A stretch of DNA of 64,000 nucleotides from the NCBI GenBank assembly GCA_913031135.1, contig CAJWEH010000002.1, forward strand, positions 1-64,000. Direction: 5' to 3'. Shown here one piece after another: positions 3,268 through 22,436 of the stretch. A model generated the notes under the pieces. The model was not told where the DNA came from, did not search any database, and saw only the letters and a list, made by a program, of their open reading frames with translations. Within the stretch, counting starts at the first letter, position 1. Each line of letters starts with the position of its first letter. A program made the position numbers and the translations under genes. This DNA comes from an uncultured Puniceicoccaceae bacterium. GTDB lineage: Bacteria; Verrucomicrobiota; Verrucomicrobiia; Opitutales; Coraliomargaritaceae.

Positions 3268-3282
3268 ATTATTGGTACCATT

Positions 3283-3744: not shown

Positions 3745-3760
3745 TAATGGAGGGGGTCTT

Positions 3761-4003: not shown

Positions 4004-4010
4004 TGGAGGT

Positions 4011-4952: not shown

Positions 4953-4959
4953 GGGTATT

Positions 4960-5331: not shown

Positions 5332-5340
5332 GGGGTAATT

Positions 5341-5562
5341 ATGGCATCTGAGACATCTTATTTAAAACCCTTAAAACTCTCTCAATTTTTTCGCTTGGTT
5401 TATTATAAGATTAAAGCGGTGTCTTTCGTTTTTTGGGGGTGCGTTAGTGGTCAGAAAAAAGTTTTTTTGAAGCCGTCCTCTAAGACTCTGAGGGGCTTGA
5501 TGTTATTGAAGGATCAACAGATTTATAAACGGAAGTCTTGGGTTTTATTTAAAGATGAGTAA
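5341..5562 (+). CDS. 73-residue protein of unknown function between ftsL and ftsI
   Basis: This basic small protein starts at ATG 5341, 9 nt after ftsL with GAGGGG just upstream, and overlaps the ftsI start by 8 nt, so it is probably translated as part of the operon. It opens MASETSYLKPLKLSQFFRL, has a weakly hydrophobic centre (IKAVSFVFWGCVS) that might touch the membrane, and ends in a Lys-rich half. I recognise no family. Its conserved-looking context argues for a real gene, but low-complexity composition leaves some doubt. Confidence 0.55.
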   Translation: MASETSYLKPLKLSQFFRLVYYKIKAVSFVFWGCVSGQKKVFLKPSSKTLRGLMLLKDQQIYKRKSWVLFKDE

Positions 5563-7321
5563 AGCTTTTACATCAGAGTATCGTTTGCGATGGATCCTGC
5601 TTTCGATTGCGTTCGCATTTTGCGTGCTTTTTGCACGCTTATTTTTTCTCCATGTTATCGATAGCGAACGCTTAACGGATTATGCAGAGGGCACGAGGAA
5701 AACGGTTCAAAAACTCAGTTCTAAGCGGGGTGATATTTTAGATATTAATGGGAATATTTTAGCGTCTACGAATTTGGCTTATACGATCGGGGTGGATCCT
5801 AATTTTATTGACTTTAAGGATGAGAAAAAGTGGGTACACTTGGCCTTTATTTTAGATATTCCTTATGGGGAATTGATGGAAAAATTTGAGCGTAAGTTTC
5901 GGGAATCAAGTGGTCGAATGATTCGTTGGACGCCGTTAGCGAAGGAAGTCGATTTGAAATGCTACCAGGCAGTACAGTCTTTGAATATACAGGGGGTTTA
6001 TGGGAATCAAAAGTATACTAGGGTGTATCCTGGAAACAGTTTGGCTGCTCATATGATTGGTTTCGTGAATCACGAGTCCGTCGCAGTCTCTGGAATTGAG
6101 CGACTGTGTGATTATTATTTAAAAGGGCAGGATGGTTGGCTCGAGTCCGAAAAGGATGGGCTCCGTAGGGAGCTTGCTCACATGAGATCGAGAGAAATAG
6201 CGCCGGTGAATGGTCATAATGTGTATTTGACGATCGACCAACGAATACAAAATGTGGTCGAGCGGGAGATTGATTTAATCGTGGAAGAGACAAATCCAGA
6301 CGGGGTTAGTATCATCGTGAGTAAACCACAAGATGGTTCCATTCTCGCTTTAGCGAATTATCCGACCTTTGATTTAAATGAGTTTAACAATTTGGAGTTG
6401 TACCCTTTAACAAATCAGAAGAATCGGGCTATCAGTGATGTGTTGGAGCCAGGGTCTACTTTTAAAATTGTTCCTGCCTCTGGGGCGCTCAATGAGGGAA
6501 TTGTTCATCCTTCGGATGTTTTTGAGACGAAGTTTGATCGGGTTGAGTATCAAAATCGAATTGTCCGACTTCCAAGTGACCATAAATTATATGATAAGTT
6601 AACAATGAGAGACATTATTGTTAAGTCGAGCAATAGGGGTGCTGCCCATTTGGGAATGCTTTTAGGTGATGAGCGTCTTTATGGTTATGCTGAAAAATTT
6701 GGCTTTGGCACTCGTACGCAGTTTGGGCTGAGTGGTGAAGTTAGGGGCACTCTGCATCCTATTGATCGTTGGGATGGCTTGACGATTAGCCGTATGCCAA
6801 TGGGGCATGCCATCAATGCAACGCCGTTACAAATTCATTATGCTATGAGTGTGATTGCGAATAAGGGGATATTGATGAAGCCTCGAATCATTGATCATTT
6901 CGTCAATGAATCTGGAATGGTACTCTTTAAATACCCAGCTCAAGCGAAGCATCGGGTGATTTCAGAAAGCGTCGCCGAGACTATGTCGGAGATATTAGGT
7001 GAGGTGACTGGCTCAAATGGAACGGCTAAGCGTGCCTTCTTAAAAGGTTATGATGTAGCTGGTAAAACGGGAACGACTAAAAAAATTGTGGATGGGAAGT
7101 ATTCGAGTGAATTCCATGTAGCTTCGTTCTCTGGATTTTTTCCTGAAGGGAATCCGGAACTAGTGATCACGGTTATAGTGGATGCTCCAAAGCTCAAGGG
7201 AGGTACTGGATATGGGGGTGCAGTGGCTGCTCCTGCTTTCAAAAATATTGCTCAGAAGTCTGCTCGTATTTTAGAAATTCGTCCCTCTGAGTATGTTGCA
7301 GATTGGATAACAAGCCAATAA
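5555..7321 (+). CDS. ftsI: Septal peptidoglycan transpeptidase FtsI (class B PBP)
   Basis: This inner-membrane enzyme cross-links septal peptidoglycan together with FtsW. It is 588 residues. A membrane anchor lies near residues 12-34, then the dimerisation (pedestal) domain with RGDILDINGN, then the transpeptidase domain. The active-site motifs are S301-T-F-K304 (within LEPGSTFKI), S358-S-N360 and K504-T-G506 (AGKTGTTKK), in the right order and spacing. It lies in the operon after ftsL, with an 8-nt overlap into the preceding small gene. No key residue is missing. Confidence 0.95.
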   Translation: MSKAFTSEYRLRWILLSIAFAFCVLFARLFFLHVIDSERLTDYAEGTRKTVQKLSSKRGDILDINGNILASTNLAYTIGVDPNFIDFKDEKKWVHLAFILDIPYGELMEKFERKFRESSGRMIRWTPLAKEVDLKCYQAVQSLNIQGVYGNQKYTRVYPGNSLAAHMIGFVNHESVAVSGIERLCDYYLKGQDGWLESEKDGLRRELAHMRSREIAPVNGHNVYLTIDQRIQNVVEREIDLIVEETNPDGVSIIVSKPQDGSILALANYPTFDLNEFNNLELYPLTNQKNRAISDVLEPGSTFKIVPASGALNEGIVHPSDVFETKFDRVEYQNRIVRLPSDHKLYDKLTMRDIIVKSSNRGAAHLGMLLGDERLYGYAEKFGFGTRTQFGLSGEVRGTLHPIDRWDGLTISRMPMGHAINATPLQIHYAMSVIANKGILMKPRIIDHFVNESGMVLFKYPAQAKHRVISESVAETMSEILGEVTGSNGTAKRAFLKGYDVAGKTGTTKKIVDGKYSSEFHVASFSGFFPEGNPELVITVIVDAPKLKGGTGYGGAVAAPAFKNIAQKSARILEIRPSEYVADWITSQ

Positions 7322-7343
7322 ATAAAAAGGAGGAATTTTAAAG

Positions 7344-8837
7344 ATGTTATTAAAAGCGTTAGTGGATGTATTGGATGTTGAACATCAGCAAATCAGTTCA
7401 AATGTAGAATTTCATTCCATCATTACGGATAGTCGGCGTGCCGTAAAAGGTGGTTTGTTTTTTGCAATTTCTGGATTTAAACAAGATGGAAATTCATTCA
7501 TTGAAGATGCGATTGAACGAGGTGTCGTTGCGGTGGTCTCGGAAGAACCTGTTGGGAAATTTTTTCCGATTGATTTTATTCAGGTGCATAATGTGCGACA
7601 GGCCTTGGCGAAGGTGTCGAAATTATTCTATGGTTCACCAGATGAAAGTCTTAATGTAACGGGAGTGACTGGAACGAATGGTAAGACAACCGTTAGTTTA
7701 TTGGCACAATATTTAATGGGAGGGAGTCAGTCGGTGGGTCTACTGGGAACGATCCGTTATGATATAGGCAATAGGACTTTGCCTTCACATCGGACGACTC
7801 CTGAATCGGTGGATTGCTTTAGTTTGTTTTCTCAAATGAAAATGGCTAATTGTAAGGATGTGGTCATGGAAGTGAGTTCGCATGGTATTGATCAGCACCG
7901 AGTCGATTATATTCATTTTAATACTGCTGTTTTTTTAAACCTTTCGCGTGATCATATGGATTATCATGAGTCGATTGATGCGTATTTTGAGGTTAAAAAG
8001 AAGCTCTTTACGGGAGCGTTGGGGTTTTTGGTAGAGCGTGCATTTGTTAATATCGATTGTCCTTATGGGAAAAAACTTTATTCAGAGATACCTGAGGGCG
8101 TTAAAAAATATTCGTTTGGTATGTCAGATTCAGCGGATTTTTGGGCGAGTGCGGTTCGTGTACAATCTACGGGCTTAGAGTTTATGCTAAATCATCCTGA
8201 GGGACAGTGTTTGATTCGATCCAACCTACTTGGGCGGCATAATGTTTTAAATCTTTTAGCTTCTCTTAGTACATCATATATGAATGGTGTTCCGATGGAT
8301 TTTTTAAGAGCTAGAGTGCTGAGTTTCCCTGGGGTAACTGGAAGACTGGAGCGTATTATAGCGGGACAAGATTTTAATGTTATCGTTGATTATGCACATA
8401 CGCATGATGCGATCCAGCATGCTTGTGAAATGATTCATGAAATAACTAAAGGTAAAAAAATTATTGTTTTTGGATGTGGTGGTGAGAGGGATCGAGGGAA
8501 ACGTCCGTTGATGCTTGCGGCTGCGATTCAAGGGGCGGATCTAGTGATTGCGACTTCAGATAATCCTAGAAATGAACCATTAGACACTATTTTTGAGGAC
8601 ATGAGGAAGGGAATTGCCGAATCGGATTTAGAAGAAAAAGTGACTTTTATTAAAGATCGGAGAAATGCAATTGCGGAAGCTTTTCATCATGCACGATCGG
8701 GTGATTGTGTCTTAATTGCGGGAAAAGGACATGAGATGTATCAAGAGTTAGAAGGACGAATGATTCCTTTTGATGATCGAAAAATCGCTAGAGAATTGAT
8801 TGAAAATCGTTATTTTAAGCCTAATAATCAGGAATGA
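7344..8837 (+). CDS. murE: UDP-MurNAc-L-Ala-D-Glu:meso-diaminopimelate ligase MurE
   Basis: This cytosolic Mur ligase adds the third stem-peptide residue. It has 497 residues. The P-loop G110-T-N-G-K114-T-T and the central and C-terminal ligase domains are clear. The motif D406-N-P-R409 is the known signature for choosing meso-diaminopimelate over lysine, so the wall is predicted to be DAP-type. That agrees with dapA and dapB at the right end of the window. An AGGAGG-like site precedes ATG 7344. The stop overlaps murF by 4 nt. Confidence 0.96.
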   Translation: MLLKALVDVLDVEHQQISSNVEFHSIITDSRRAVKGGLFFAISGFKQDGNSFIEDAIERGVVAVVSEEPVGKFFPIDFIQVHNVRQALAKVSKLFYGSPDESLNVTGVTGTNGKTTVSLLAQYLMGGSQSVGLLGTIRYDIGNRTLPSHRTTPESVDCFSLFSQMKMANCKDVVMEVSSHGIDQHRVDYIHFNTAVFLNLSRDHMDYHESIDAYFEVKKKLFTGALGFLVERAFVNIDCPYGKKLYSEIPEGVKKYSFGMSDSADFWASAVRVQSTGLEFMLNHPEGQCLIRSNLLGRHNVLNLLASLSTSYMNGVPMDFLRARVLSFPGVTGRLERIIAGQDFNVIVDYAHTHDAIQHACEMIHEITKGKKIIVFGCGGERDRGKRPLMLAAAIQGADLVIATSDNPRNEPLDTIFEDMRKGIAESDLEEKVTFIKDRRNAIAEAFHHARSGDCVLIAGKGHEMYQELEGRMIPFDDRKIARELIENRYFKPNNQE

Positions 8838-10213
8838 CAGTAGAAGGACAGTTTCTTGCAGAATGCACAGATGGGGAATGGGTTCATGGGATACCTACTG
8901 CTGTTAATGAAATTGTTTTTGATTCTCGTTTAATTGAGCAGGATAAAAAACAAGTGTTTATTGCTATGACCCACGGGGGACGAGATGGACATGATTTTGT
9001 TGATTCGGCAATTTCAGCGGGTGCTTTGGCTTGTATTGTAGAGCGGGAAATGGATCGTGCCTGCCCTCAATTAATTGTGCCTAATACATTGAATGCTTTG
9101 AGTGATATCGGTAGGACCATTCGTGAGCGTTATGAGGGAACTGTTATTGGGATCACAGGAAGTTGCGGAAAAACCAGTACAAAGGGTTTGTTAAAACATG
9201 CATTAGGGCGTGAGGTGACTTTTTCCAAAGAGGGGAATTGGAACAATAAGATGGGGGTTCCGTTAACACTCTTTGACCTGCATAAGAGTGCTTCTCGTTA
9301 TGCCGTTATAGAAGCGGGCATCAGTGAATGTGATGAAATGTCTGAGTTGAGTGCGATGATTCAGCCAGATCTATGTCTCATAACGAACATAGGAGAAGCT
9401 CATTTAGAAGGCTTAGGAAATTTGCAAGTGGTGGCTGAAGAGAAGTCAAAAATAATGGAATTTTCTAAAGAAGGAGCACAATTGGTAACCGCTGAAAGCG
9501 TATTGCACTATAAGGTGTTTGATGCGTATAAAGAGGGGGTTACCTGTGTTTGTCCGCTTTCTGAAAAGGATAGAGTTTCTGATGAAGCTTCGTATTTTTA
9601 TGACTATGAATATCTGAGCACGGGTACTTCAAAAGTTCATGTGAGGCATTTGAACAGGAGTGTTGAGTTTGAAATACAGTCTTTGAGTCCTGGTATGATT
9701 CAAAATGCGGTTTTAGCCTTAGCGACTGCTGGGACGCTCGGTTTAGAATTGGAGTCAGTTGCTAAAAGATTGGAATCATGGAAGCCTGAAATGAACCGAG
9801 GGTCGATACTCAATCAAGGGGGAGTTTTATTTTATAACGATTGTTATAATGCAAATCCTAGGTCTATGCTAGATTCGCTTTCGTCCTTTCGAGTGGTGGC
9901 TAAAAATCATAAGCATAAGTTGTATGTATTAGGTACAATGAATGAACTGGGAGAAGAGACCGAGTCCTTGCATCGTGCCGTTGCTCGAGAAATTGCACCC
10001 AATCCTAATGATCAAATGGTTTTTGTTGGATCAAAGTCGCTCACATCTGCTTATTTAGAAGGAGCAAAATTAGCTGGTTGGAAAGAAAGTTCCTTGCAAT
10101 GCGTGGAATCTGTAAAATATTTAAAGTCGATGGTGGAACAATTTTCTGGAGCTGTTTTCTTAAAAGGAAGTCGAGTGTGTCGATTGGAAACCCTTATTCC
10201 TGAGACGGATTAA
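8834..10213 (+). CDS. murF: UDP-MurNAc-tripeptide:D-alanyl-D-alanine ligase MurF
   Basis: It adds D-Ala-D-Ala to the UDP-MurNAc-tripeptide. It has 459 residues. The ATP loop GITGSCGKTST has K113. The WNNKMGVPLTL block, typical of MurF, and the C-terminal YNDCYNANPRSM block are present. The ATG overlaps the murE stop by 4 nt, indicating coupled translation. D-Ala-D-Ala would come from Ddl encoded further down the same operon. Confidence 0.96.
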   Translation: MTVEGQFLAECTDGEWVHGIPTAVNEIVFDSRLIEQDKKQVFIAMTHGGRDGHDFVDSAISAGALACIVEREMDRACPQLIVPNTLNALSDIGRTIRERYEGTVIGITGSCGKTSTKGLLKHALGREVTFSKEGNWNNKMGVPLTLFDLHKSASRYAVIEAGISECDEMSELSAMIQPDLCLITNIGEAHLEGLGNLQVVAEEKSKIMEFSKEGAQLVTAESVLHYKVFDAYKEGVTCVCPLSEKDRVSDEASYFYDYEYLSTGTSKVHVRHLNRSVEFEIQSLSPGMIQNAVLALATAGTLGLELESVAKRLESWKPEMNRGSILNQGGVLFYNDCYNANPRSMLDSLSSFRVVAKNHKHKLYVLGTMNELGEETESLHRAVAREIAPNPNDQMVFVGSKSLTSAYLEGAKLAGWKESSLQCVESVKYLKSMVEQFSGAVFLKGSRVCRLETLIPETD

Positions 10214-10216
10214 ACT

Positions 10217-11317
10217 ATGTTGAGTTATTTGTCAGATTTAGAGAGCTTTTTTGGACCGTTTCGATTGTTTCGTTATTTGTCATTGAGAATCGCATTTTGT
10301 GGTATTAGCTCAATGTTGATTGGATTTTGGATTGGACCGATGATTATTCGCTACCTCAGGGCAATTAAGATGAATCAAGTTTTAAGGACACAATCTGAGG
10401 TGGGTGATCTCGCTAAATTACATCAAGGAAAAGCGGGAACTCCGACAATGGGTGGGTTTATTATTTGTATTTCGGTGACCATAAGCACCATTTTATGGGC
10501 GCAGCCTAATGTTTATGTGTATGTCTGCTTGTTGGTCTATTTAGGTTTAACTTTGTTGGGTTTTATCGATGATTATTTGAAAGTCTTTAAGAGTAACAGC
10601 AAAGGATTATCGAGTATGAAAAAGTTTTTAGGGCAGGCGATTATTTCAATAATGGCAATTGTTGTTTTGTTGCTTGTTCCTGAGTCGAGTGAACGCGTAA
10701 AAGAATTATGGGTTCCGTTTTACAAACATGTTCTGATCGAGCAGATGCCATTGTTTATTTTGATTCCATTTTTCTTTTTAGTTCTTTCAGGTTCTAGTAA
10801 TGCGATTAATTTAACCGACGGGATCGATGGGCTTGCTATTGGTTGCACGATTACGGTTGTTTTGTCCTATGTTATTATGGCGTATGCTGCTGGGAATAAG
10901 ATTATTTCGGAATATTTGTTTATAAGCTATATTCCTGGTATTGGTGAATTGGCGGTCTTGAGTGCTGCAATACTCGGTGCGAGTCTGGCTTTTTTGTGGT
11001 ATAATTCATACCCTGCTGAGGTGTTTATGGGGGATACTGGTTCTTTAGCCTTAGGTGGTATTATAGGGGCAATTGCATTTTTAATTCATCAGCCTTTTAC
11101 TTTGGTGATCGTGGGTGGTATTTTTGTTATAGAAGCCTTATCGGTTATGCTCCAAGTTTTTTCATTTAAAACATTTGGACGGAGAATTTTTAGAATGTCG
11201 CCAATCCATCATCATTTTCAGTTGGGTGGATGGGTTGAGAATAAAGTGGTGATTCGTTTTTGGATTTTATCGCTCTTGTTTGCGATTGTTGGAATAGCTA
11301 GTTTAAAACTTCGTTAA
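10217..11317 (+). CDS. mraY: Phospho-MurNAc-pentapeptide transferase MraY
   Basis: This polytopic inner-membrane enzyme moves phospho-MurNAc-pentapeptide to undecaprenyl phosphate, giving lipid I. It has 366 residues and about ten hydrophobic segments. Signatures seen are GKAGTPTMGGF, FIDDYLKV, the catalytic NLTDGIDGLA block (about residues 198-207), EVFMGDTGSLALGG and SPIHHHFQLGGW. It starts 3 nt after murF and ends 1 nt before murD. Confidence 0.97.
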   Translation: MLSYLSDLESFFGPFRLFRYLSLRIAFCGISSMLIGFWIGPMIIRYLRAIKMNQVLRTQSEVGDLAKLHQGKAGTPTMGGFIICISVTISTILWAQPNVYVYVCLLVYLGLTLLGFIDDYLKVFKSNSKGLSSMKKFLGQAIISIMAIVVLLLVPESSERVKELWVPFYKHVLIEQMPLFILIPFFFLVLSGSSNAINLTDGIDGLAIGCTITVVLSYVIMAYAAGNKIISEYLFISYIPGIGELAVLSAAILGASLAFLWYNSYPAEVFMGDTGSLALGGIIGAIAFLIHQPFTLVIVGGIFVIEALSVMLQVFSFKTFGRRIFRMSPIHHHFQLGGWVENKVVIRFWILSLLFAIVGIASLKLR

Positions 11318-11318
11318 T

Positions 11319-12587
11319 ATGGTGCAGGCGGTTGCAGTATTTGGTGCGGGTGTCAGTGGTATTGCAGTCGCTAGTTTGGCAAAAAAAGAAGGGTACAAGA
11401 TCGATCTTTTTGATGAGCGGGAAAAGGGCTGTCGATCAGACTTTGATGAGAGTCAGCTTGATTTGTACACGCATTTTATTTTTAGCCCAGGATTTTCACA
11501 AAGCCACCCTTGGAGAAAATGGACAGAGGGTCGTTCAAATGTCTATGGAGAGTTAGGCTTTTCAGCTCAGCGTTGGAGGGGCAAGCTGATTGGGGTGACT
11601 GGTACTAATGGCAAGACTAGTCTTACGCGGTTTTTAAAATTGTGTTTGAGCAAGCGAAATCCCTATGTGCATGCGGTTGGTAATATTGGGATACCTCTAT
11701 CTGAATTGGTTGCGAGTGATCATAACCGTGAGGATGCGATTGCCATTTGTGAAATCAGTTCTTTTCAGGCAGAACTTTTAAATGGCTTAGTTTTAGATGC
11801 GTTGTTGTGGACAAATTTTTCTGAGGATCACTTAGATCGACATGGGGATATAGGAACCTATTTTAAGGCAAAGTTTGGATTGAGGAGCACCTTAAATGAA
11901 GAGGGTTATTTTTTTGTTGGAGCGCAAAATTTACTTTATAAGGAGCGAGATTTTTGGACGGAACAACGAGCAATTATCGTATCACATGATTCCTCACTCC
12001 CATCTGGACTTAGTGAAGCGTCAGTCTTTTCATCCTACCCACAGCGATGGAATTTCCATTTAGCGCATGCATTTCTCAAGTGCTATGGGGTGGATGAATC
12101 GGATATCGTTTCTGCCGCAAATGAATTTTTTTTAGATGCGCATCGTTTGCACGTGATCTATGAGCACGCGGGGCTTCGAATTTGGGATGATTCTAAATCA
12201 ACCAATCTGAATTCAGTATTGGGTGCTTTGGAACATTTGGAGGAAGCGGTTATTTGGATTGGTGGAGGCGCTTCAAAAAAGGAGTCGATTGCTCGTTATG
12301 CAAAAGGTATTAGTCATCATAAAAATGTGGAGCAGGTTGTTTTGTACGGGGAAGTTGGTCGTGCCCTTGAGGAGGAATGTTTGAACTACTCAATGAATGT
12401 TCTGTACAAAAAGGATTTGGGTGAGGCGATTCGCTGTGCTTTGAAATTTGCGGAATCATACAAAAGAGTCGAACTATTGTTTAGTCCTGGATTTGCTAGT
12501 TTTGATCAATTTTCTTCTTATCAAGAACGGGGAAAATATTTCACAGACTATGTTTTTAGTTTACTGAAGCAAAATCCATCTTTATAA
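11319..12587 (+). CDS. murD: UDP-MurNAc-L-alanine:D-glutamate ligase MurD
   Basis: It adds D-Glu to UDP-MurNAc-L-Ala in the cytosol. It has 422 residues. An N-terminal Rossmann-type stretch (AVFGAGVSGIAVA) is followed by the P-loop G95-T-N-G-K99-T-S, the EISSFQAELL block and DDSKSTNLNSVLGAL, all typical of MurD. The C-terminal domain ends with SPGFASFDQFSSYQERGKYF. It is separated from mraY by 1 nt. Confidence 0.95.
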   Translation: MVQAVAVFGAGVSGIAVASLAKKEGYKIDLFDEREKGCRSDFDESQLDLYTHFIFSPGFSQSHPWRKWTEGRSNVYGELGFSAQRWRGKLIGVTGTNGKTSLTRFLKLCLSKRNPYVHAVGNIGIPLSELVASDHNREDAIAICEISSFQAELLNGLVLDALLWTNFSEDHLDRHGDIGTYFKAKFGLRSTLNEEGYFFVGAQNLLYKERDFWTEQRAIIVSHDSSLPSGLSEASVFSSYPQRWNFHLAHAFLKCYGVDESDIVSAANEFFLDAHRLHVIYEHAGLRIWDDSKSTNLNSVLGALEHLEEAVIWIGGGASKKESIARYAKGISHHKNVEQVVLYGEVGRALEEECLNYSMNVLYKKDLGEAIRCALKFAESYKRVELLFSPGFASFDQFSSYQERGKYFTDYVFSLLKQNPSL

Positions 12588-12609
12588 ATTCTAAAAAGTT
12601 AAATTTATT

Positions 12610-13524
12610 ATGAACACATCTAAAGTTTTTGGTTTTATTTTAGCCCTTCATGTAGGGGTCATCTCAATATTATTTGTACAACCGGGTTGTCAATCTTCAG
12701 TGCAAGCACCGACGCAGTCTGATTATCAATTAAATTCACTTGAGCAGGCGAATTCAGAGGCACCTAGTGCCTTAGATTTAGCGTATCAAGAGAGTAGTCT
12801 GATCGATGCGTCACTGAGTGAATCGGATTATGATCAATTGAATGAAATCGAGGGTGTCTTTTTAGAAGAGGAAGCGTTTACAGTTTCGGTCAATGAAGTG
12901 TCTATGGATACCTATACGATTCAATCGGGGGATACGCTTTGGGATTTGGCTAAGCGTTTTGATACAACGGTTGCAGAGTTGTGTGAATTAAATGGTTTGA
13001 TTAAAGACTCAGTCCTACAAATTGGCAGGGAGATTGATGTGCCGACAGGGGACAGTAAAGAAATGGAAATTACAAAAGAAACGGCTACCCTGTATCAACC
13101 GAGCACCTACGAGGGTGTTGGGCAGTCATATTTGATTGCACCTGGAGATTCACTTTCAAGAATCGCTAAAAAGTTTGGTACAACAGTGGACGCTTTAAAG
13201 GCGGCTAATAGCTTGACTTCAGATAGAATTTACAGTGGTCAGAAGTTGCTCATTCCAGTTGATGGGGTCGTTGTTGAGGCTCCAGCAGTGGAGACTGTTG
13301 AGGTTTCAGTTGAAGAAGCTCCAGTTGCTGTTGCAGCAGTTGAGCCAGTGGCAACTGAAGTAACGAGTTCGTCGATTGTTCAAGAGGCAGAACCCTTAGA
13401 TACTTTTGGTAGTTCTATCGAAGACGATTTATCCAATATCGAAGCTTTAGAGTCAGGGGAAATCAACTTTGATGATTTTGAAGAGGTTGAACTGGATTAC
13501 GTTAACGTAGGAGCAGAAGAGTAA
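12610..13524 (+). CDS. Exported protein with two LysM domains
   Basis: The protein has 304 residues. An N-terminal hydrophobic segment (about 7-24) precedes Cys27, a possible lipoprotein site although the lipobox is poor. LysM repeat 1 spans about residues 102-146 (YTIQSGDTLWDLAKRF) and repeat 2 about 174-217 (YLIAPGDSLSRIAKKF). The rest is acidic and Val/Glu-rich. LysM domains bind peptidoglycan, so it is likely anchored to the wall in the periplasm. Its place between murD and ftsW, inside the operon, suggests a structural or regulatory role at the septum. No hydrolase domain is present. Confidence 0.85.
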   Translation: MNTSKVFGFILALHVGVISILFVQPGCQSSVQAPTQSDYQLNSLEQANSEAPSALDLAYQESSLIDASLSESDYDQLNEIEGVFLEEEAFTVSVNEVSMDTYTIQSGDTLWDLAKRFDTTVAELCELNGLIKDSVLQIGREIDVPTGDSKEMEITKETATLYQPSTYEGVGQSYLIAPGDSLSRIAKKFGTTVDALKAANSLTSDRIYSGQKLLIPVDGVVVEAPAVETVEVSVEEAPVAVAAVEPVATEVTSSSIVQEAEPLDTFGSSIEDDLSNIEALESGEINFDDFEEVELDYVNVGAEE

Positions 13525-13552
13525 TTGCAACGCGACTACTTATTCAATAAAA

Positions 13553-14695
13553 ATGCCTCAAATTAACATCTGGAGAAATTCAAATGCACGAATTTCTTCT
13601 GTTAGTTTGATCATTATATTAGTCGTTTCGGCTTTAACGACATTGGGACTTTTGGTCTTGTTCAGTGCTTCAAAAGCCTATTATGCCAATCCGAGTCTGA
13701 TCGTTCAAAAACAGTTTATTTGGTTACTGCTGAGCCTGTTTTCTGCAATCGTCATTTTTAGGTTAAATCTAGAAAAGCTCCGTGACTTTATTTTTATTTT
13801 AGGGGTATTTTCTCTTCTGTTACTATTTTTAGTTTTAATTCCAGGGATCGGGGTTGAGGTGAATGGTGCTCGCCGATGGATTGATTTCGGTGTTATGCGC
13901 TTGCAAGTCTCGGAAATTGGTAAGATTGGTCTACTTTTCACTTTATCGCATTATTTAGCGATGCATCGTAGATCCTTAGATCAGGTGATTAGTGGCTTTA
14001 TCATTCCTTGTTCTATTTTAGGAGTCTTTTGTGCTTTAATATTTCTTGAGCCTGATTTTGGAACTGCTTTTTTGTGTGGATTGGTGGGTGGTATCCTTTT
14101 TTTTGTATCGGGAATGCACTTAAAGTATTTGTTACCAACGGCGTTGTCTGCCTTAATTGTTTTTATCATTGCTATTTTAAATGATCCTGAACGGTTGAGT
14201 CGCATAACATCTTTTTTAGATGTAGAATCAAATCGCTCAGACAGTGGGTACCAGTTGTGGCAGGGGATTTTGGCATTTGGGGTTGGTGGCATCGATGGGG
14301 TCGGATTGGGCTCTGGTCGTCAACAGATGTCTTTTTTGCCAGAAGCGCATACCGATTTTATTTTTGCCATTGTGGGTGAAGAGCTCGGTTTATTTTTTAC
14401 TAGCGGAATCGTATTTTTATTTTTGTTCCTCTTCATTTGTGTTCTGACTCAGTTAAAATATGCACCTAATTTATATCAGTTTTTATTAGTTTTAGGTGCG
14501 ATTCTCTTTATAGAATTTCAAGCTTTGATCAATATAGGAGTGGTAACGGGTTGTCTTCCCACAAAGGGTATGTCATTACCCTTTATCTCGTATGGAGGTT
14601 CTAATTTATTATTTATGTTTAGTTTAATTGCTATTATTTTAAATTGTTTCAGTACTTGGCAGGAATCACCTATAGCGGAAGTAAGAGATTTATGA
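13553..14695 (+). CDS. ftsW: Septal peptidoglycan glycosyltransferase FtsW
   Basis: This SEDS-family inner-membrane protein polymerises septal glycan with FtsI. It has 380 residues and about ten membrane segments. Signatures are the GARRWIDFG loop, HTDFIFAIVGEELG and KGMSLPFISYGGSNLL. FtsW rather than RodA is chosen from position between murD and murG and from the single neighbouring ftsI. The TGA overlaps the murG ATG (ATGA), so translation is coupled. Confidence 0.95.
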   Translation: MPQINIWRNSNARISSVSLIIILVVSALTTLGLLVLFSASKAYYANPSLIVQKQFIWLLLSLFSAIVIFRLNLEKLRDFIFILGVFSLLLLFLVLIPGIGVEVNGARRWIDFGVMRLQVSEIGKIGLLFTLSHYLAMHRRSLDQVISGFIIPCSILGVFCALIFLEPDFGTAFLCGLVGGILFFVSGMHLKYLLPTALSALIVFIIAILNDPERLSRITSFLDVESNRSDSGYQLWQGILAFGVGGIDGVGLGSGRQQMSFLPEAHTDFIFAIVGEELGLFFTSGIVFLFLFLFICVLTQLKYAPNLYQFLLVLGAILFIEFQALINIGVVTGCLPTKGMSLPFISYGGSNLLFMFSLIAIILNCFSTWQESPIAEVRDL

Positions 14696-15792
14696 CGGAT
14701 GTTTTAATTGTGTGTGGAGGCACTGGGGGGCATTTAGCTCCGGGGATAGCACTCGCTCAAGAATTTAATGCGCAATCGTACTCGACCAAGCTCTATATCA
14801 GTAAAAAGGCAATTGATGCTGAGATTGTTAAGAAATACAAGGAATTAGAATTTGATTCGGTATCTGGTAAGGCGTTTTCGAATGGTATTTTAGGGCGACT
14901 TCAATTTATACTCGATTTACTATTTAGTATTCCTAAAATTATTTTAGAAATCAGAAGTCATAAACCTAAGGTCATTGTTTTATTTGGAGGTTTTTTATCA
15001 GTAGGTTTTGGTTTGATTGGTTTTATATTGAATCAAAGGCTTGTTTTGCATGAGGCGAACTGCAGAGTCGGAAAAGCGGTTCGGCTCTTAAAGCATTTTG
15101 CCTCACGTATTTATTTACCCGATGGAGTGTCTTTAAAAAAGATTTCTAAAGGCGTGGTCAAACATTGTGGCTATCCTTTACGAAAGGAGTTTGTAAAAAG
15201 AAATCAGGGAGAGGCACGGTCAGATTTAGGACTCAACTCAGATGGACGGGTTTTAGTGGTGATCGGAGGAAGTCAAGGAGCTGAGGTTTTAAATCAATGG
15301 GTTATGGATCATTTTGATCATTTAGCTGATTTAGGAATTTCTATTTATTGTGTTACAGGCTTAAAGAGTGGGCTCTCAAGTGAAGACACAATTTCACTGA
15401 GTGGCAATCGGTCGGTTTTTGTTAAGATGGTTCCTTTTTCAGATGATATGGTTTCGGTTCTTTCATCGGCTGATTTGATTTTATCACGAGCGGGTGCTGG
15501 TTCAATTGCTGAGATTACTCGATGCGAAGTTCCTAGTATATTAATTCCCTATCCTTATGCAGCAGATGATCACCAGCTAATGAATGCTCGAATGCATGAG
15601 CAAGCAGGGGCGGGAATTGTTGTGAGTCAGAACAGAATCGATACGCTCAGAGGTGAGGTTGAAGATCTGATTTTCAATGACCAAGTTCTCGAGCAATTAA
15701 AGATTAATTTAGCAGGCTTAAATAAGATCGATTCTTCTAAATTAATTGTCCAAGATATCATGTCTGATTTTTTCCCAAAACAGAAGCATTGA
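14692..15792 (+). CDS. murG: UDP-GlcNAc:lipid I GlcNAc transferase MurG
   Basis: This GT28 enzyme on the inner membrane face turns lipid I into lipid II. The start is ATG 14692, overlapping the ftsW stop; earlier in-frame codons fall inside ftsW. It has 366 residues. It shows the GGTGGHLAPGIALA nucleotide loop at the N-terminus, LVLHEANCRVGKA, VIGGSQGAEVLN at the start of the second domain, and the SRAGAGSIAEI donor-binding block. murC-murB follows after 3 nt. Confidence 0.95.
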   Translation: MTDVLIVCGGTGGHLAPGIALAQEFNAQSYSTKLYISKKAIDAEIVKKYKELEFDSVSGKAFSNGILGRLQFILDLLFSIPKIILEIRSHKPKVIVLFGGFLSVGFGLIGFILNQRLVLHEANCRVGKAVRLLKHFASRIYLPDGVSLKKISKGVVKHCGYPLRKEFVKRNQGEARSDLGLNSDGRVLVVIGGSQGAEVLNQWVMDHFDHLADLGISIYCVTGLKSGLSSEDTISLSGNRSVFVKMVPFSDDMVSVLSSADLILSRAGAGSIAEITRCEVPSILIPYPYAADDHQLMNARMHEQAGAGIVVSQNRIDTLRGEVEDLIFNDQVLEQLKINLAGLNKIDSSKLIVQDIMSDFFPKQKH

Positions 15793-15795
15793 GTC

Positions 15796-18072
15796 ATGTT
15801 TCAGAATAAACGGATACTATTTCTAGGTGTTGGAGGAGCTGGTATGGCACCTTTGGCACTTTGGTGTTCGAGTCAATCAACAAGCTTATTTGGCTATGAT
15901 GACTTTCTGAAGCATGAGACTGAAGATTTATTGACGCAGACTGGGCTTACTCTTTTAGATTTATTACTACTAGAGGATCTCAAATCCTTTGATTTAATCG
16001 TTTACTCAAATGCTTTTCCGCTTGATAACCCATTTTTGCTTGAGGCGAAACGGTTGAATATCGAGTGTTTTCGTAGGGGTGAGTTTTTAGCTCAGATCGC
16101 ACAAAAGAAAAAGTTGATTGCAGTGGTGGGAAGTCATGGAAAGACGACTACTAGTGCTTTGATTGCTTTTTTAGTTCAGAAGTACGATCAAACGATCGAT
16201 TATATTTTAGGGGGTTTTTTGAAAGATGGTTCGTCGCCAGCTTTTGCGTGTGGATCAGATTGGCTTTTAGCAGAAATAGATGAGAGTGATGGATCAATTG
16301 ATCAATTTTCGCCAGAGCTGACTGTGTTTTTAAATTTGAGTTGGGATCATTCTGACTATTACAAGGATTTTGATGCTTTAAAAGGCGTATTTGCTGCTTT
16401 ATTAGAACGAACAAGTGGGACAATTTTTGTTGAAAAAGCGTTATTGAAAAGCTTGGGCTTTAGTTCATCACTTTTTCCACGCTGTCAGTTTATTGAGTGT
16501 CACTTGACGGAGGGATCGAAAGATTCTGAGCATGAGGCGGTTAACGGTAACTTATTAAGCTCTGAATTTAATCAAAAAAACCAATGTTTTGCCTTAGCAG
16601 TTGCGGAACATTTAGGGTTTGCTCAAGAAAGTGACCGTTCTATCTTTCATTCTTTTGTTGGGGTGAAGCGAAGGCAAAATTTACTGGTTTCCGATTCAAA
16701 TTTGACAGTTTTTTTAGATTACGCACATCATCCTTTTGAGATTGAGCATTTGATTCAATCAGTTCGTAAAGCCTATAATGATCATGAGCTCGTTTTGGTT
16801 TTTCAGCCACATCGTTACTCTAGAACACACAGCTTAAAAAAAGAAATAGCAACTGTTTTAAGTGAAACAAATCGTTTGTTTTTATTGCCGATTTATTCTG
16901 CTTTTGAAAAGGAGTTCGGTGGATTTGATTTAGAGCAGTTCAAAAAGTTAATTGAGACTCAGAGTATCTCCTTAATCAATCTGAATATTTTAGGTTTAAA
17001 TTCCATTTTAGAGAGTATCGACCCATCAAAGAAGACGGTTGTGTTATTTGTAGGTGCTGGTTCTATCAACGAATTTTCGAAAGCGTTTACTGCTCTCTAT
17101 AAGGGAGGGACGCTTGCGCGAGCATGGCTTGATTTTGCTCATGCTAATGTGTCTAAGGAGTCTGTGGTGAAGTTGGATGAATCCTTGTCTGAGAAAACAA
17201 CTTTTAAAATTGGGGGGTCTGCGGCATTTTATGCTGAGCCTGCTTCTGTTTCAGATTTGTTATCTTTGGTTGAATCGGCTCTAATTTTTGGTCTTGAATA
17301 CTTTTGCCTAGGCAGAGGTTCAAATATTTTAGTTTCGGATAACGGTTATGGTGGTCTCGTGCTTCGATTTAATCATAAGCGATGGCGTGTAATTAAGGCT
17401 GTTGGCCCAAATCACTTATGGGTTGGTTGTGGAGTTAGGCTTAAGGAATTGTGTGGCTATGTTGCTCGTTTAGGTTTTTCGGGCTTTGAGTTTTTGGAAG
17501 GAATTCCTGGCACGCTTGGTGGTGCTTTGCGTATGAATGCTGGAGCTATGGGTAAATGGATTTTTGACGTTGTCGAACGTGTACTGATGCTTGATGCTAA
17601 TGGAGTTATCCAAGCGATGCCAAAGAATTCATTTACAGTTGAGTACAGGCGGGTCAAAGAAATTAGTGAAGGGATTGCTTTGGGTGCGTTATTAAAACTG
17701 GGTGCTCCTGAATCCACCCAAACGATTCGAACAAAGATTGATTCGTATTCGGATGTTCGCAAAGGTAGTCAACCAATTGCTCCTAGTGCTGGTTGTATCT
17801 TTAAGAATCCAAACGGGAATTATGCGGGACGCTTAATTGATGAACTCGGACTAAAGGGAGCGTCTTTTGGGAAGGCAGAAGTTTCGGATGTCCATGGCAA
17901 CTTTATTATCAATAAAGGAGGATCAACTGCATTAGAGGTACAGTCTTTGATTCGCCGTATTCGTAAAAAAGTTAGAAATGAATCAGGTTATGAATTAGAG
18001 CCGGAAGTTTTATTACTTGGTGAGAGTTGGGATGATGTTCTAAAGGAGATTGGTGATGAAAAAGAACTTTGA
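15796..18072 (+). CDS. murC-murB: MurC-MurB fusion (UDP-MurNAc-L-alanine ligase / UDP-GlcNAc-enolpyruvate reductase)
   Basis: One continuous frame of 758 residues carries two enzymes. Residues 1 to about 435 are MurC, with the GVGGAGMAPLA start, the P-loop G112-S-H-G-K-T-T-T and LFLDYAHHPFEI. From about residue 455 comes MurB, with TTFKIGG, RGSNILVSD (about 507), GIPGTLGGAL, SAGCIFKNP (about 664-672) and the closing ELEPEVLLLG. The fusion joins the reductase that makes UDP-MurNAc to the ligase that uses it. The MurB proton donor, Ser in E. coli, appears as Cys (SAGC). The end overlaps ddl by 17 nt. Confidence 0.95.
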   Translation: MFQNKRILFLGVGGAGMAPLALWCSSQSTSLFGYDDFLKHETEDLLTQTGLTLLDLLLLEDLKSFDLIVYSNAFPLDNPFLLEAKRLNIECFRRGEFLAQIAQKKKLIAVVGSHGKTTTSALIAFLVQKYDQTIDYILGGFLKDGSSPAFACGSDWLLAEIDESDGSIDQFSPELTVFLNLSWDHSDYYKDFDALKGVFAALLERTSGTIFVEKALLKSLGFSSSLFPRCQFIECHLTEGSKDSEHEAVNGNLLSSEFNQKNQCFALAVAEHLGFAQESDRSIFHSFVGVKRRQNLLVSDSNLTVFLDYAHHPFEIEHLIQSVRKAYNDHELVLVFQPHRYSRTHSLKKEIATVLSETNRLFLLPIYSAFEKEFGGFDLEQFKKLIETQSISLINLNILGLNSILESIDPSKKTVVLFVGAGSINEFSKAFTALYKGGTLARAWLDFAHANVSKESVVKLDESLSEKTTFKIGGSAAFYAEPASVSDLLSLVESALIFGLEYFCLGRGSNILVSDNGYGGLVLRFNHKRWRVIKAVGPNHLWVGCGVRLKELCGYVARLGFSGFEFLEGIPGTLGGALRMNAGAMGKWIFDVVERVLMLDANGVIQAMPKNSFTVEYRRVKEISEGIALGALLKLGAPESTQTIRTKIDSYSDVRKGSQPIAPSAGCIFKNPNGNYAGRLIDELGLKGASFGKAEVSDVHGNFIINKGGSTALEVQSLIRRIRKKVRNESGYELEPEVLLLGESWDDVLKEIGDEKEL

Positions 18073-18985
18073 GCATTTTTTTGTTTTATCAGGGGGCACG
18101 AGTGCCGAGCGTGAGGTTTCCTTAAAGAGTGGTTCTGCGGTTGCTAAGACATTGAGCAAACAATATCCAGTAAAGAATGTTGTTCTTGATTCTGAAAGTA
18201 TTCCAGATGGCATCGACAGTAATCGTCATATCGTATTTCCTGTTTTACATGGGGCTTTTGGGGAAGATGGTCGCTTACAAGCCTTACTTGAGCATGAGGC
18301 GATTGAATTTGTAGGCAGTGGTTCAGAGGCTAGTGCTTTGTGTATGGATAAGTTGGCTTCTAAATTAAAAGCAAAAAAAATAGGTGTTCCTGTTGCGGAA
18401 AGTCTATCGGTAAACGCTTCTTCGATTCCGCTCGCCGATACGATTATAAAAGAGTTAGGAAGCGATCTCGTTATAAAGCCAAATCGTTCGGGCAGTAGTG
18501 ATGGTCTATCTTATATTTCCAATCGCTCTTCCTTAGGGCTTGCTTTGTCGAAAATTGAAGAGGGCGATTGGCTCCTTGAGCGACGAATTGAAGGACGAGA
18601 ATTTACGGTTGGGCTTTTAGAGGGCTCGGCATTAGAGATCGTTGAAATAAAGTGCCGAGGAGGGCAGTTTGATTATCATGCTAAATATGAATCGAAACAG
18701 ACGCTTTATGAAAGCCCTGCTGTTATCGATAAGGATTTAGAGCAAAAGATTAAAGGACTGGCTGAAACAATATATAAAGCATTTGCTTGCCGGGATTTTG
18801 CTCGGATTGATTTTATGGTAGAAGATAACAGACCTTATTTTTTGGAAGTGAATACGATTCCTGGAATGACTGAGACGAGCCTTTTACCCAAATCAGCTGC
18901 TGCAAATGGGCTAATGTTTGATGAGCTTTGTCAAAAAATGGCATCCTTTGCCTTGGAACGCTTTCTTAAACCTTCGATGGAGTGA
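18056..18985 (+). CDS. ddl: D-alanine-D-alanine ligase
   Basis: It joins two D-alanines for MurF. From ATG 18056 it has 309 residues. AGGAG (18044-18048) lies 7 nt upstream and supports this start over the TTG and GTG just before it. ATP-grasp features are clear: LSGGTSAEREVSLKSG, LHGAFGEDGRLQALLE, VIKPNRSGSSDG, and the metal-binding ARIDFMVEDNRPYFLEVNTI with PGMTETSLLP. It overlaps murC-murB by 17 nt, and the ftsQ start (TGATG) by 1 nt. Confidence 0.96.
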   Translation: MKKNFEHFFVLSGGTSAEREVSLKSGSAVAKTLSKQYPVKNVVLDSESIPDGIDSNRHIVFPVLHGAFGEDGRLQALLEHEAIEFVGSGSEASALCMDKLASKLKAKKIGVPVAESLSVNASSIPLADTIIKELGSDLVIKPNRSGSSDGLSYISNRSSLGLALSKIEEGDWLLERRIEGREFTVGLLEGSALEIVEIKCRGGQFDYHAKYESKQTLYESPAVIDKDLEQKIKGLAETIYKAFACRDFARIDFMVEDNRPYFLEVNTIPGMTETSLLPKSAAANGLMFDELCQKMASFALERFLKPSME

Positions 18986-19917
18986 TGAAATTTGATTTTA
19001 AAGATAATAAATCGGTTTCGTATCGCGGTTCACATAGTTGGCGTGACTTAAACGAACAAAGATCTAAACGAATCGTTACCATCGCTTCGGTTTTACGAAG
19101 AATCAGAGGTTACTTGAGATACTTGATTGTACTGTGCTTGCTCTTTGGTGGCTTTTGGTTTTGGGATACTTTTTTTCGAGCAACCAATGTGACTGAAATA
19201 GATTCTAATGTCAGTTCCACAAATTATTTGAGTAAAGTTTTATTTAAAACGGACGGGGTGTTGGATCAAAATTGGTTGGCTAAGGTGACGCAATTAAATA
19301 AAAGGATGAAATTGATGGATGTGGATATTCACGGAATAAAGATGAAGTTAGAAGCATTGGATCAAATTACAAAAGCCGAGGTCGTTCGAATTTTTCCTGA
19401 TGCGATTAAAATTGAATTGTTTGAAGAACAGCCGATGTGCCGTTTAAACTTAAAGACAAGAAGTGGTGAAATAGAGTCCAAAATGGTTTCATTGAATGGA
19501 GTGGTTTTCTCCGCATATGGCTACGAGGATTCTTTTTATAATAGTTTGCCTGAGTTTATCCCTTACAATGGTACCATTGAAATTTCAGAGCCTATCAATG
19601 GGATCGATAGGATTCGTCTTCTAATGGATCGCTATACAAATGAAGTTTTCAAAGAGGATTTAAAAATTGATCAAATTAATGCTAAGAATTTCCCTGCTGA
19701 AGTTGGAATGCCTGGTCAGGTGATCGAAATTAAAACAAAGCGTATCCCTCGCATATTATTAAGTGCTTATGATGATTTTGATGAACAAATCAATCGATTG
19801 AGGTATCTATTGATTCGTATTAGTGTGATGGGAGACCCTGAAGTCCTAAAAGTCGATTTATCTTTAAAGCACTCTGCTGCAGTTCAATTTAAAGACCCTC
19901 AAATTCGTGCATTCTAA
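18985..19917 (+). CDS. ftsQ: Cell division protein FtsQ
   Basis: This bitopic divisome protein has 310 residues. A basic cytoplasmic N-terminus of about 45 residues precedes one membrane segment (RYLIVLCLLFGGFWFWDTFF region), then a POTRA-like region and the FtsQ/DivIB domain with KAEVVRIFPDAIKIELFEEQ, which matches the family's 'v.r.wP..l.i...E..p' pattern. The C-terminal ILLSAYDDFDEQINRLRYLL fits the domain end. The start is the ATG sharing its A with the ddl stop. Position before ftsA and ftsZ supports the call. Confidence 0.9.
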   Translation: MKFDFKDNKSVSYRGSHSWRDLNEQRSKRIVTIASVLRRIRGYLRYLIVLCLLFGGFWFWDTFFRATNVTEIDSNVSSTNYLSKVLFKTDGVLDQNWLAKVTQLNKRMKLMDVDIHGIKMKLEALDQITKAEVVRIFPDAIKIELFEEQPMCRLNLKTRSGEIESKMVSLNGVVFSAYGYEDSFYNSLPEFIPYNGTIEISEPINGIDRIRLLMDRYTNEVFKEDLKIDQINAKNFPAEVGMPGQVIEIKTKRIPRILLSAYDDFDEQINRLRYLLIRISVMGDPEVLKVDLSLKHSAAVQFKDPQIRAF

Positions 19918-19956: not shown

Positions 19957-21162
19957 ATGGGATACTCAAAGGTCGTCGGAGCAATTGAAATAGGCACATC
20001 AAAAGTAGCCATTTTAATTGGCGAAATATCAAATGATGGCTCTCTCAACATTATTGGACATTACACTGGACTGGCTAAAGGAGTAAAAAAGGGAGTGATT
20101 GTCGATTTAGAGGCAGCATCGGCTTCTGTGCATGCCTCCATTTTAAGAGCAGAAAATGAAGCTAATGTGAAAATTAGTGAGGTCTATTTGGCTCAGACTG
20201 GTATGCATTTAAAGGGCATTTTCAATGTTGGAACAGCGAATGTGAGTAGTTCGGATGGATTGATTTCAAAATCTGATATCGAGCGTGCAAAAGAAGATGC
20301 CAAGCGGCCAAGATTGCCTGAAGGTCGTGTTTTCATAAACCATATACAAAATCCATTTTCTATAGATGGGGTCAAAACAGAAAATCCCTTACATAAGAAA
20401 GGTAGGCGCTTAAAGGTTGGTTATTGGGCAATTCATGCAGATAGCAAAATTTTGCAGGATTCTCTTAGAGTGATCCGTGGGGTTCCTTTAGATGTAGAAG
20501 ATGTCATACTTTCATCGATTGCTTCTAGTAATGTTTTATTACATGAGAATGAAAAAAAAGCGGGTGCATTGGTTGTTGATATTGGAGGAGGAACAACGGA
20601 TTTTGCATTATATCGCGACGGTTTTATTGTCTATACAGGTGTCATTCCTGTCGGGGGTGATCATATTTCTAATGATTTAAGTATGGGATTACGAACCTCT
20701 GTGGAGGTGGCAGATAAACTTAAATTGAGAGAGGGTCTTGCGCTTGAAGTTAAAAAAGATCCTAAGGCTTATGTTTGGCTGGTTGGAAACCAGATAATTG
20801 GTGATCGAGAGATTCCTTTAATCTCTGTTTCAAAAATAGTAGAATCTCGTCTAAAAGAAATATTTGAAATCATTGTCGAAGAGTTGACTGAGTTGAAGCT
20901 CTTTAATAAAAAAGAGATTGCATCTGGAGTGGTTTTGACTGGAGGCACTTCAAAAATTATCGGGATTGAGCACTTGGTTGCTAGGGTGATGGATTTAGAG
21001 TGTCGTTTGGGTTCTTGTCATTGGGATATTTCTGAAGATTTAAATGTCCCTGAATATACAACCGCACTTGGCTTGCTTTCTTATGCGGTTGCAAATAATG
21101 AAGGATCTCAAAGTAAGGGAGGGTCTATTATAAATTTTTTAAGGGGGTTTTTAGACCGTTGA
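19957..21162 (+). CDS. ftsA: Cell division protein FtsA
   Basis: This actin-like protein tethers FtsZ filaments to the membrane. It has 401 residues. The nucleotide motifs are AIEIGTSKVAILIG at the N-terminus, VVDIGGGTTDFALY (about 204-217) and GVVLTGGTSKIIGIEHL. The 1C subdomain region follows the first motif, as in FtsA and unlike MreB. The last residues (SIINFLRGFLDR) form the amphipathic membrane-targeting helix. The intact anchoring helix matters because its partner FtsZ is unusual here. Confidence 0.95.
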   Translation: MGYSKVVGAIEIGTSKVAILIGEISNDGSLNIIGHYTGLAKGVKKGVIVDLEAASASVHASILRAENEANVKISEVYLAQTGMHLKGIFNVGTANVSSSDGLISKSDIERAKEDAKRPRLPEGRVFINHIQNPFSIDGVKTENPLHKKGRRLKVGYWAIHADSKILQDSLRVIRGVPLDVEDVILSSIASSNVLLHENEKKAGALVVDIGGGTTDFALYRDGFIVYTGVIPVGGDHISNDLSMGLRTSVEVADKLKLREGLALEVKKDPKAYVWLVGNQIIGDREIPLISVSKIVESRLKEIFEIIVEELTELKLFNKKEIASGVVLTGGTSKIIGIEHLVARVMDLECRLGSCHWDISEDLNVPEYTTALGLLSYAVANNEGSQSKGGSIINFLRGFLDR

Positions 21163-21188: not shown

Positions 21189-22436
21189 ATGAGTGAATTA
21201 GATCTAATGAATTTAAAAGTGAGGGTTCTGGGGCTAGGGGGCGCAGGTTCCTTAATCGTTGACACATTTTGTAATCAAGCTTCTGCAAATGTAGAATGCT
21301 ATGCACTTGACTCAGATTCTAAGTTTTTAGGTTCAATAAAGTCAGCGAAAACAATGTTAGTTGGTCAAGAGGTCTGTCGGGGTATTGGTTGCGGTGGTGA
21401 TATAGAATTGGCTCAGCAAGCGATTGAACAGGATAGAGATCTTTTAAATCAAATCTTAGAGGGAAGGGATGTTCTTATATTGGTAGCTGGTTTAGGTGGT
21501 GGTATTGGTAGCGCATTGGCTTCTGTTATATCTGAGTTGAGCGGAAAGACCAATGCCTTAATTCTAGGCTTTTTCATATTACCCTTTAGTTTTGAAGGTT
21601 CGAGATATCGAATCAGTAACACTACTGCAGAACACATACGTCCATTAGTGCATGGTATGTTCACGATCCAAAATGACTTATTACTTCAGGAAGGCGAAGG
21701 AAATTTGAGTGCTTTAAATGTTTTTGAAAATGGTAATCGATGGATTTTAAATAGTTTAAATTCAATACAGAATGTGCTCTTTGAAAACGGATTATTAAAT
21801 CAAGATTTAGGATCCTTAAAAAAGGTCTTTAGCCAATTAGGTGGAAAATCTTTTTTTGCAGTAAGTGGAGAGAAGGAAGAGTTTATTTCTGATATGGAAT
21901 CGGTACAAACGTTTATTCAAGCATTTCTGTCAGGACCGTTTTTTCACCTAGATATTCGACCGTCACACCTTGATAAATTGTTGATTATCATAAAAGGGAG
22001 TCAAAATTTAGAACTTTCGGTTATTAATGATATTAGTTCTTTGATTATTAAGGAGTTGAATTTTAAAAAAGATGTCAATCTAGGGGCGTTTATCGATCCT
22101 TCTTTAGTGAATACCTTAGAGATTTGTATCTTTGGTAAATCAGAAGTAGAGGAAAAACAGCTTGAAGCAAAGTCTAGTGATCGAAGTGCAAAAGAAGATG
22201 CTAGTAGTTCATCCTTAGACCTAGGTTTAGAAATGAGCGAGCAAAAGCCTAAAGTACATAAATCAAAACTAGGAAAAAAGCATAAGGAAGAATCAGATTC
22301 GCAAAAAGAGTTTCAATTTTTTGACAATGGTGAAAATAGAGGCTATTTTGAAAATACGGATACTGAGTTTTACAAAGAAATCAATTTGGATATGCCCACG
22401 TATCTACGAAAAGGGATTAAAGTTAAGTATAAATAA
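21189..22436 (+). CDS. ftsZ: Divergent FtsZ
   Basis: This tubulin-like division protein has 415 residues and lies directly after ftsA. The overall fold is readable: LGLGGAGS near residues 14-21, AGLGGGIGSALA (100-111), FILPFSFEGSRYR, QNDLLL (161-166), a variable acidic linker and a normal C-terminal partner-binding peptide (DMPTYLRK). Several key sites differ from canonical FtsZ. The GGGTGTG signature reads GGGIGSA, and the T7 loop NxDxxD reads N204-Q-D206-L-G-S209, with the last Asp replaced by Ser. GTP turnover may therefore be altered. No second FtsZ is in the window. Confidence 0.9.
   Translation: MSELDLMNLKVRVLGLGGAGSLIVDTFCNQASANVECYALDSDSKFLGSIKSAKTMLVGQEVCRGIGCGGDIELAQQAIEQDRDLLNQILEGRDVLILVAGLGGGIGSALASVISELSGKTNALILGFFILPFSFEGSRYRISNTTAEHIRPLVHGMFTIQNDLLLQEGEGNLSALNVFENGNRWILNSLNSIQNVLFENGLLNQDLGSLKKVFSQLGGKSFFAVSGEKEEFISDMESVQTFIQAFLSGPFFHLDIRPSHLDKLLIIIKGSQNLELSVINDISSLIIKELNFKKDVNLGAFIDPSLVNTLEICIFGKSEVEEKQLEAKSSDRSAKEDASSSSLDLGLEMSEQKPKVHKSKLGKKHKEESDSQKEFQFFDNGENRGYFENTDTEFYKEINLDMPTYLRKGIKVKYK

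Follow-up and report, generated by a model that had tools for sequence, protein, structure and literature searches.

A single-copy FtsZ with one remaining T7-loop aspartate, probably a slow GTPase, in an uncultured Puniceicoccaceae bacterium

Introduction

Both aspartates of the FtsZ T7 loop are said to be conserved across species, and the FtsZs of model organisms are disabled when either is mutated. The related Planctomycetota and Chlamydiota divide without FtsZ. In the FtsZ of S. aureus, the residue corresponding to E. coli D209 swings and places the attacking water, the residue corresponding to D212 stays put and links to an arginine, and Q48 (E. coli Q47) locks a K+ ion into the T7 loop of the neighbouring subunit; the D213N mutation (E. 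coli D212) abolishes assembly in vitro (PMC8936486). In E. coli, GTP hydrolysis by the D212A protein is much slower; beside the wild-type FtsZ this protein joins division rings, and septa complete division in cells that over-express it together with FtsA (PMC4383033). The E. coli D212G and Q47K proteins each complement only in the presence of a suppressor (PMC5405962). Low GTPase activity has also been reported for a natural FtsZ, that of Ca. Thiosymbion oneisti (PMC8953583), and in the related alpha/beta-tubulin some subunits lack an activating T7 loop (PMC3232192), although tubulin is a heterodimer whereas the FtsZ described here is a single homopolymeric protein.

The divergence of verrucomicrobial FtsZ has been published, a serine in the T4 loop was noted for V. 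spinosum in 2007 (PMC1845146), and verrucomicrobial FtsZs are reported to be among the most divergent FtsZs (PMC9871819). An accelerated evolution of FtsZ was remarked on, without data, for Methylacidiphilum (PMC2474590). Here we describe an FtsZ from an uncultured Puniceicoccaceae bacterium, encoded in a stretch of 64,000 nucleotides (contig CAJWEH010000002.1; hereafter the window), which is altered at the same positions as the E. coli D212A, D212G and Q47K mutants. Those are laboratory mutants, of which D212G and Q47K do not complement alone, whereas the changes in the window FtsZ are natural, fixed and combined.

Results

Gene context and copy number

The dcw cluster of the window is complete, running from mraZ at 3262 through ftsZ in the order ftsQ-ftsA-ftsZ, with ftsZ directly 3' of ftsA (Table 1). 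A murC-murB fusion like that found in this cluster is reportedly present in V. spinosum.

The ftsZ gene had been noticed as the only one in the window, and it proved to be the only FtsZ/tubulin homologue found in the whole genome (G000; 97.6% complete, 1.28 Mb in 95 contigs): the NCBIfam profile TIGR00065 and a lineage profile of 50 rows each gave one match. The same two profiles likewise gave one FtsZ in a sister member of the genus (G001; 97% complete), and in less complete members the gene was cut by contig ends. Nearly all genomes of the class carry one FtsZ. In a scan of genome contigs, the only match was a remote archaeal FtsZ.

Table 1 Features of the dcw cluster and of ftsZ in the window.
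Feature	Position	Strand	Remark
mraZ, mraW, ftsL-like, ftsI, murE, murF, mraY, murD	within 3262..18985	+	from ORFs, sequence and gene order
LysM protein, ftsW, murG, murC-murB fusion, ddl	within 3262..18985	+	from ORFs, sequence and gene order
LysM-repeat protein gene	12610-13524	+	in the dcw cluster, flanked by murD and ftsW
murC-murB fusion	15796-18072	+	
ftsQ	18982..19917	+	assigned from position, gene order and sequence type
ftsA	19957..21162	+	membrane-anchor partner; 287.6 bits against a family cut-off of 175.85
ftsZ	21189..22436	+	415 aa, no internal stop in the translation; sole FtsZ of the genome
K45	21321..21323	+	E. coli Q47; Lys in 5/5 genus members covered
T4 phosphate loop, G103-A109	21495..21515	+	GGGIGSA; canonical GGGTGTG
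R139	21603..21605	+	E. coli R142, arginine-finger-like; retained
T7 loop, N204-Q-D206-L-G-S209	21798..21815	+	Asn and catalytic Asp (E. coli N207, D209) retained; Ser in place of D212
C-terminal tail, residues 372-415	22302..22433	+	QxEFxF...RGYF...LDMPTYLRKGIKVKYK; conserved across the order

Family membership and predicted fold

The protein scored 87.4 bits against the Tubulin/FtsZ GTPase domain (PF00091; cut-off 33), 19.7 bits against FtsZ_C (PF12327; cut-off 27; E 0.0011) and 153.1 bits against the equivalog model TIGR00065, whose cut-off is 295.2. The last cut-off is missed by 116 of the 141 class genomes, including one of the V. spinosum genus (G187), and is therefore unsuited to this phylum. 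An AlphaFold model built from 50 relatives had a mean pLDDT of 84.9, mostly above 90 in the core, and the best 50 Foldseek matches in the PDB were all FtsZ (E down to 1.7e-30), showing a predicted FtsZ fold. The best matches were FtsZ in every library searched, rather than BtubA/BtubB, TubZ or an FtsZ-like paralogue, and the protein also differs from the FtsZ-like paralogues of other classes. Three such paralogues (L204, L205 and L206) are second FtsZ-like proteins of 366-376 aa with GGGTGNG and loops such as LDIDFEDF, in genomes that have a main FtsZ too.

With the canonical FtsZs of E. coli, S. aureus and B. subtilis, the window FtsZ shares the fold, the position after ftsA, the glycines of the phosphate loop, D43, R139, N204, D206 and a C-terminal peptide of the FtsA-binding type. 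It differs from them in its low identity (about 21-27%), its score under the equivalog cut-off, the extension of its conserved tail and the replacement of E. coli D212, T108, Q47, N24, N43 and D187.

Altered and retained residues

The alterations described in the sequence-only reading are present in the protein. GGGIGSA stands in place of GGGTGTG at residues 103-109 of the translation, departing from the T4 signature GGGTG[SAT]G, and the T7 loop reads NQDLGS instead of NxDxxD, both in the translation and in a phmmer alignment to solved FtsZ structures. In that alignment, which spans residues 11-314, S209 is set against the last aspartate of NVDFAD (E. coli D212), so that no intact motif residues are hidden elsewhere. 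Further departures from E. coli are N24 to L22, N43 to D41, Q47 to K45 and D187 to R184. D43, E136, R139, N162 and D206 are retained in all covered members of the genus. With the glycines of the phosphate loop intact, as well as D43, E136, R139 and N162, a loss of GTP binding appears unlikely, but the affinity for nucleotide could be low, since the pocket residues N24, T108 and D187 (E. coli numbering) are lost.

FtsZs were collected from some 200 genomes spanning the order, class and phylum, and their residues were read at E. coli positions. The altered motifs are real but not peculiar to this genome: the loss of D212 and, in the T4 loop, the T-to-S and G-to-A changes extend across the order or the family. 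At position 212 the genus has S or T, other members of the family have S or A, and the remaining members of the order have mostly T, A, H or S. At position 209 the genus and family have D, and all other members of the order have D or E. R142, D45, E138 and N165 are retained throughout the genus and family and almost throughout the order, and many members of the family have Q at 208. Serine is frequent at T4 position 110 across the phylum, and FtsZs of the family generally have alanine at 111; a serine at the former place is allowed by the tubulin signature and was noted for V. spinosum in 2007 (PMC1845146). I or V at 108 is specific to the genus (6/6 members covered), and D at 43 is another mark of it. 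K at 47 occurs in all five covered members of the genus, in 2 of 26 sequences elsewhere in the family, and elsewhere in the order also. Chance, sequencing or assembly error and a pseudogene could be ruled out as sources of these changes, as the frame is intact and S/T at 212, K47, I/V108 and A111 are found in every covered member of the genus.

The tail reads LDMPTYLRKGIKVKYK, and the DMPTYLRK peptide, which the sequence-only reading had recognised as kept, is conserved across the order. LDMPTYLRKG is of the type bound by FtsA-like partners, and binding to FtsA is predicted on this basis. The last 44 residues (QxEFxF...RGYF...LDxPTYLRKGIKI) extend further than the canonical peptide and are conserved in every complete sequence of the order. 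The section upstream of the FtsA-type peptide (QxEFxF, RGYF) is also order-wide, and another partner may bind there.

Selection and FtsZ-specific fast evolution

The ftsZ gene is under purifying selection, as judged by dN/dS in the single unsaturated pair of genus members (dN 0.14, dS 1.26). Divergence in this group is specific to FtsZ: in the same 141 class genomes, FtsA exceeds its cut-off in 140 and FtsZ in 25, and in 179 of 183 comparisons, including one of the window with itself, the window FtsA lies closer to its counterparts than does the FtsZ core. This fits the reported divergence of verrucomicrobial FtsZs (PMC9871819), and the FtsA/FtsZ counts put numbers on the remark made for Methylacidiphilum (PMC2474590). 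M. infernorum shares with the present bacterium a fast-evolving FtsZ next to an ordinary FtsA; the paper gives no residue data, and the organism likely belongs to our family f29 (the name being inferred), whose FtsZ is far more eroded than that of the window. In f29 (L150-L157) the strongly eroded FtsZ matches the FtsZ model with E-values of 1e-6 to 1e-22 beside an ordinary FtsA, several of the genes lie in closed genomes of 2.2-2.5 Mb, and loops such as APFDSINF and VRAEDSPF retain the acid at 209.

Some genomes of the set appeared to lack FtsZ. True loss was ruled out for G016 and G042, where ftsQ or ddl runs off a contig end, and the absence in G137, whose FtsA lies at a contig end, is probably an artefact of the same kind. 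In G023 (90% complete), ftsQ on contig C1 (L232:1762-2703) is followed by neither ftsA nor ftsZ, and neither gene occurs elsewhere in the genome; G053 and G256 also lack both. These three cases may represent chimeric contigs or a real loss of ftsAZ in Verrucomicrobiota.

One acid of two in the T7 loop

In a tree of ftsA, the order forms one fully supported group of 39 rows, of which 38 have lost D212 and all 39 have D or E at 209. In a sister clade the pattern is inverted: all 22 of its rows have lost D209 and carry D or E at 212. The sister clade includes the family of Prosthecobacter, recognised by a tubulin-like second gene (L158), and by inference also holds that of Akkermansia. Among 192 FtsZs of the phylum, the acid is present at 209 only in 93, at 212 only in 62, at both in 32 and at neither in five, so that 187 carry at least one; at the family level, neither acid is found in 2 of 93 families against 15.3 expected. 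These counts cover the Verrucomicrobiota. Misalignment of the T7 loop was rejected as their source, because the same split is seen in the 152 sequences that are securely anchored by a contiguous G204 and a hydrophobic residue at 213 (21 both, 75 only 209, 52 only 212, four neither).

A model with dependent rates at 209 and 212 was favoured over independence with a likelihood ratio of 26.3, a value that none of 114 simulations reached; among 137 random pairs of columns with similar variability, the highest ratio was 23.5. By the fitted rates, the loss of one acid is about ten times or more rarer once the other is gone. A sign test on phylogenetically independent pairs pointed in the same direction but had too few pairs to reach significance (median p 0.25), and the count of sequences with neither acid, compared with simulation, likewise agreed without being significant alone (P 0.18). 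The dependence between the two sites is supported by the rate test and by the random-column control. Coupling of Q47 with 207 or 212 gave ratios of 11.6 and 8.6, within the range of random column pairs. Five FtsZs, L146, L148 and L149 of family f44 and L137 and L200, have no acid at 209 or 212 (e.g. RINRSH, RITKSH, PLPLDN) and are candidates, from their sequences, for a truly non-hydrolysing FtsZ.

The FtsZ of V. spinosum, which we identified through both published primers (PMC1845146), has the T7 loop RMGIAD, and its gene is essential by TraDIS (PMC12283558). A half-lost loop is therefore compatible with an essential FtsZ. This protein shares with the window FtsZ the phylum, the high divergence, the T4 serine and the half-loss of the loop, but it has lost the opposite half (N207R, D209G, with D212 kept) and carries a long C-terminal extension; because the half-losses are opposite, it serves as an analogy only.

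Discussion

We consider it likely that the window protein is the single working division FtsZ of this bacterium, a slow GTPase with one catalytic aspartate. The FtsZ-like fold would bind GTP and form head-to-tail filaments, which FtsA would hold at the membrane through the retained C-terminal peptide. At the subunit interface, the one remaining acid, D206 (the water-positioning D209 of E. coli), would hydrolyse GTP slowly with the help of the adjacent subunit's R139 and in the absence of the second acid (E. coli D212), and the lineage would tolerate the resulting slow treadmilling and low filament turnover. D212 would have been lost in the past of the order, the genus having eroded the site further (T108I/V, Q47K). 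The slow hydrolysis suggested by the sequence-only reading would be the likeliest consequence, by analogy with the much slower GTP hydrolysis of E. coli D212A (PMC4383033). A counterpoint from the same kind of analogy is that S. aureus D213N does not assemble in vitro and that E. coli D212G and Q47K need a suppressor to complement, and the window FtsZ is altered at both of these positions (E. coli 212 and 47).

That one acid is kept is best explained by selection for hydrolysis that is reduced but retained, although the pattern could instead reflect a filament interface or assembly process that needs one acid. It also suggests that activity is still selected, which would suit a near-normal hydrolysis in which S209 with D206, K45 in the place of the K+ ion and Q205 rebuild the active site; the fixation of K47 in the genus, its presence elsewhere in the order and the frequency of Q208 in the family point the same way. 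We nevertheless think this unlikely. Several residues replace D212 (S, T, A, H, G), alanine among them, which would not be expected of a new catalytic residue, and a role of K45 in place of K+ is speculative because the coupling of 47 with 207 and 212 is within the random-pair range. It is also improbable, and slightly more so, that the protein binds GTP and polymerises without hydrolysing it, guiding septal wall synthesis as a static scaffold or with turnover by other proteins. D212, T108 and Q47 are lost together and some members of family f44 keep neither acid, as such a scaffold would allow, but the genus is invariant for D206 and R139, and a scaffold would not need the acid that the phylum almost always keeps, unless that acid serves assembly.

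There is very little probability that FtsZ is a decaying relic and that division is becoming independent of it as in Planctomycetota and Chlamydiota. The acceleration specific to FtsZ (25/141 over the cut-off, against 140/141 for FtsA), the reduction of the f29 FtsZ and the published view of an altered division in PVC bacteria (PMC2474590) would agree with decay. The purifying selection, the conserved tail, the frame intact in the genus and the retention of ftsA and the complete dcw cluster would not; moreover, ftsZ is essential in V. spinosum, and contig ends account for the seeming lack of the gene in G016, G042 and probably G137. Least credible of all is that a second, canonical FtsZ or a tubulin performs division. 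Something could be missing from a genome that is 97.6% complete in 95 contigs, but the other FtsZ that the sequence-only reading allowed for finds no support in the whole-genome profile searches, which gave one FtsZ each in G000 and G001, nor in the single FtsZ of nearly all class genomes.

Returning to the slow single-aspartate enzyme, because relatives throughout the phylum have lost one acid or the other and almost never both, these bacteria may rely on a weakened GTPase for division. We hold more tentatively, at a little under an even chance, that FtsZ was repeatedly cut to one acid across the phylum, with opposite halves lost in sister lineages, and that these bacteria divide with single-carboxylate Z-rings of slow turnover. 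If this is true, the textbook requirement for both aspartates would be a feature of the model organisms rather than of FtsZ itself. Neither the missing T7 aspartates nor the one-or-other pattern was reported in the freely accessible literature searched. On many occasions, evolution has taken one T7 aspartate from FtsZs that are the sole copy, and at least one such FtsZ is essential (that of V. spinosum, with the opposite half). These FtsZs are natural proteins with which to probe the amount of GTP hydrolysis and treadmilling that a Z-ring requires and what each acid does. They also raise the question of whether a weakened GTPase may be a step toward the FtsZ-less division of Planctomycetota and Chlamydiota.
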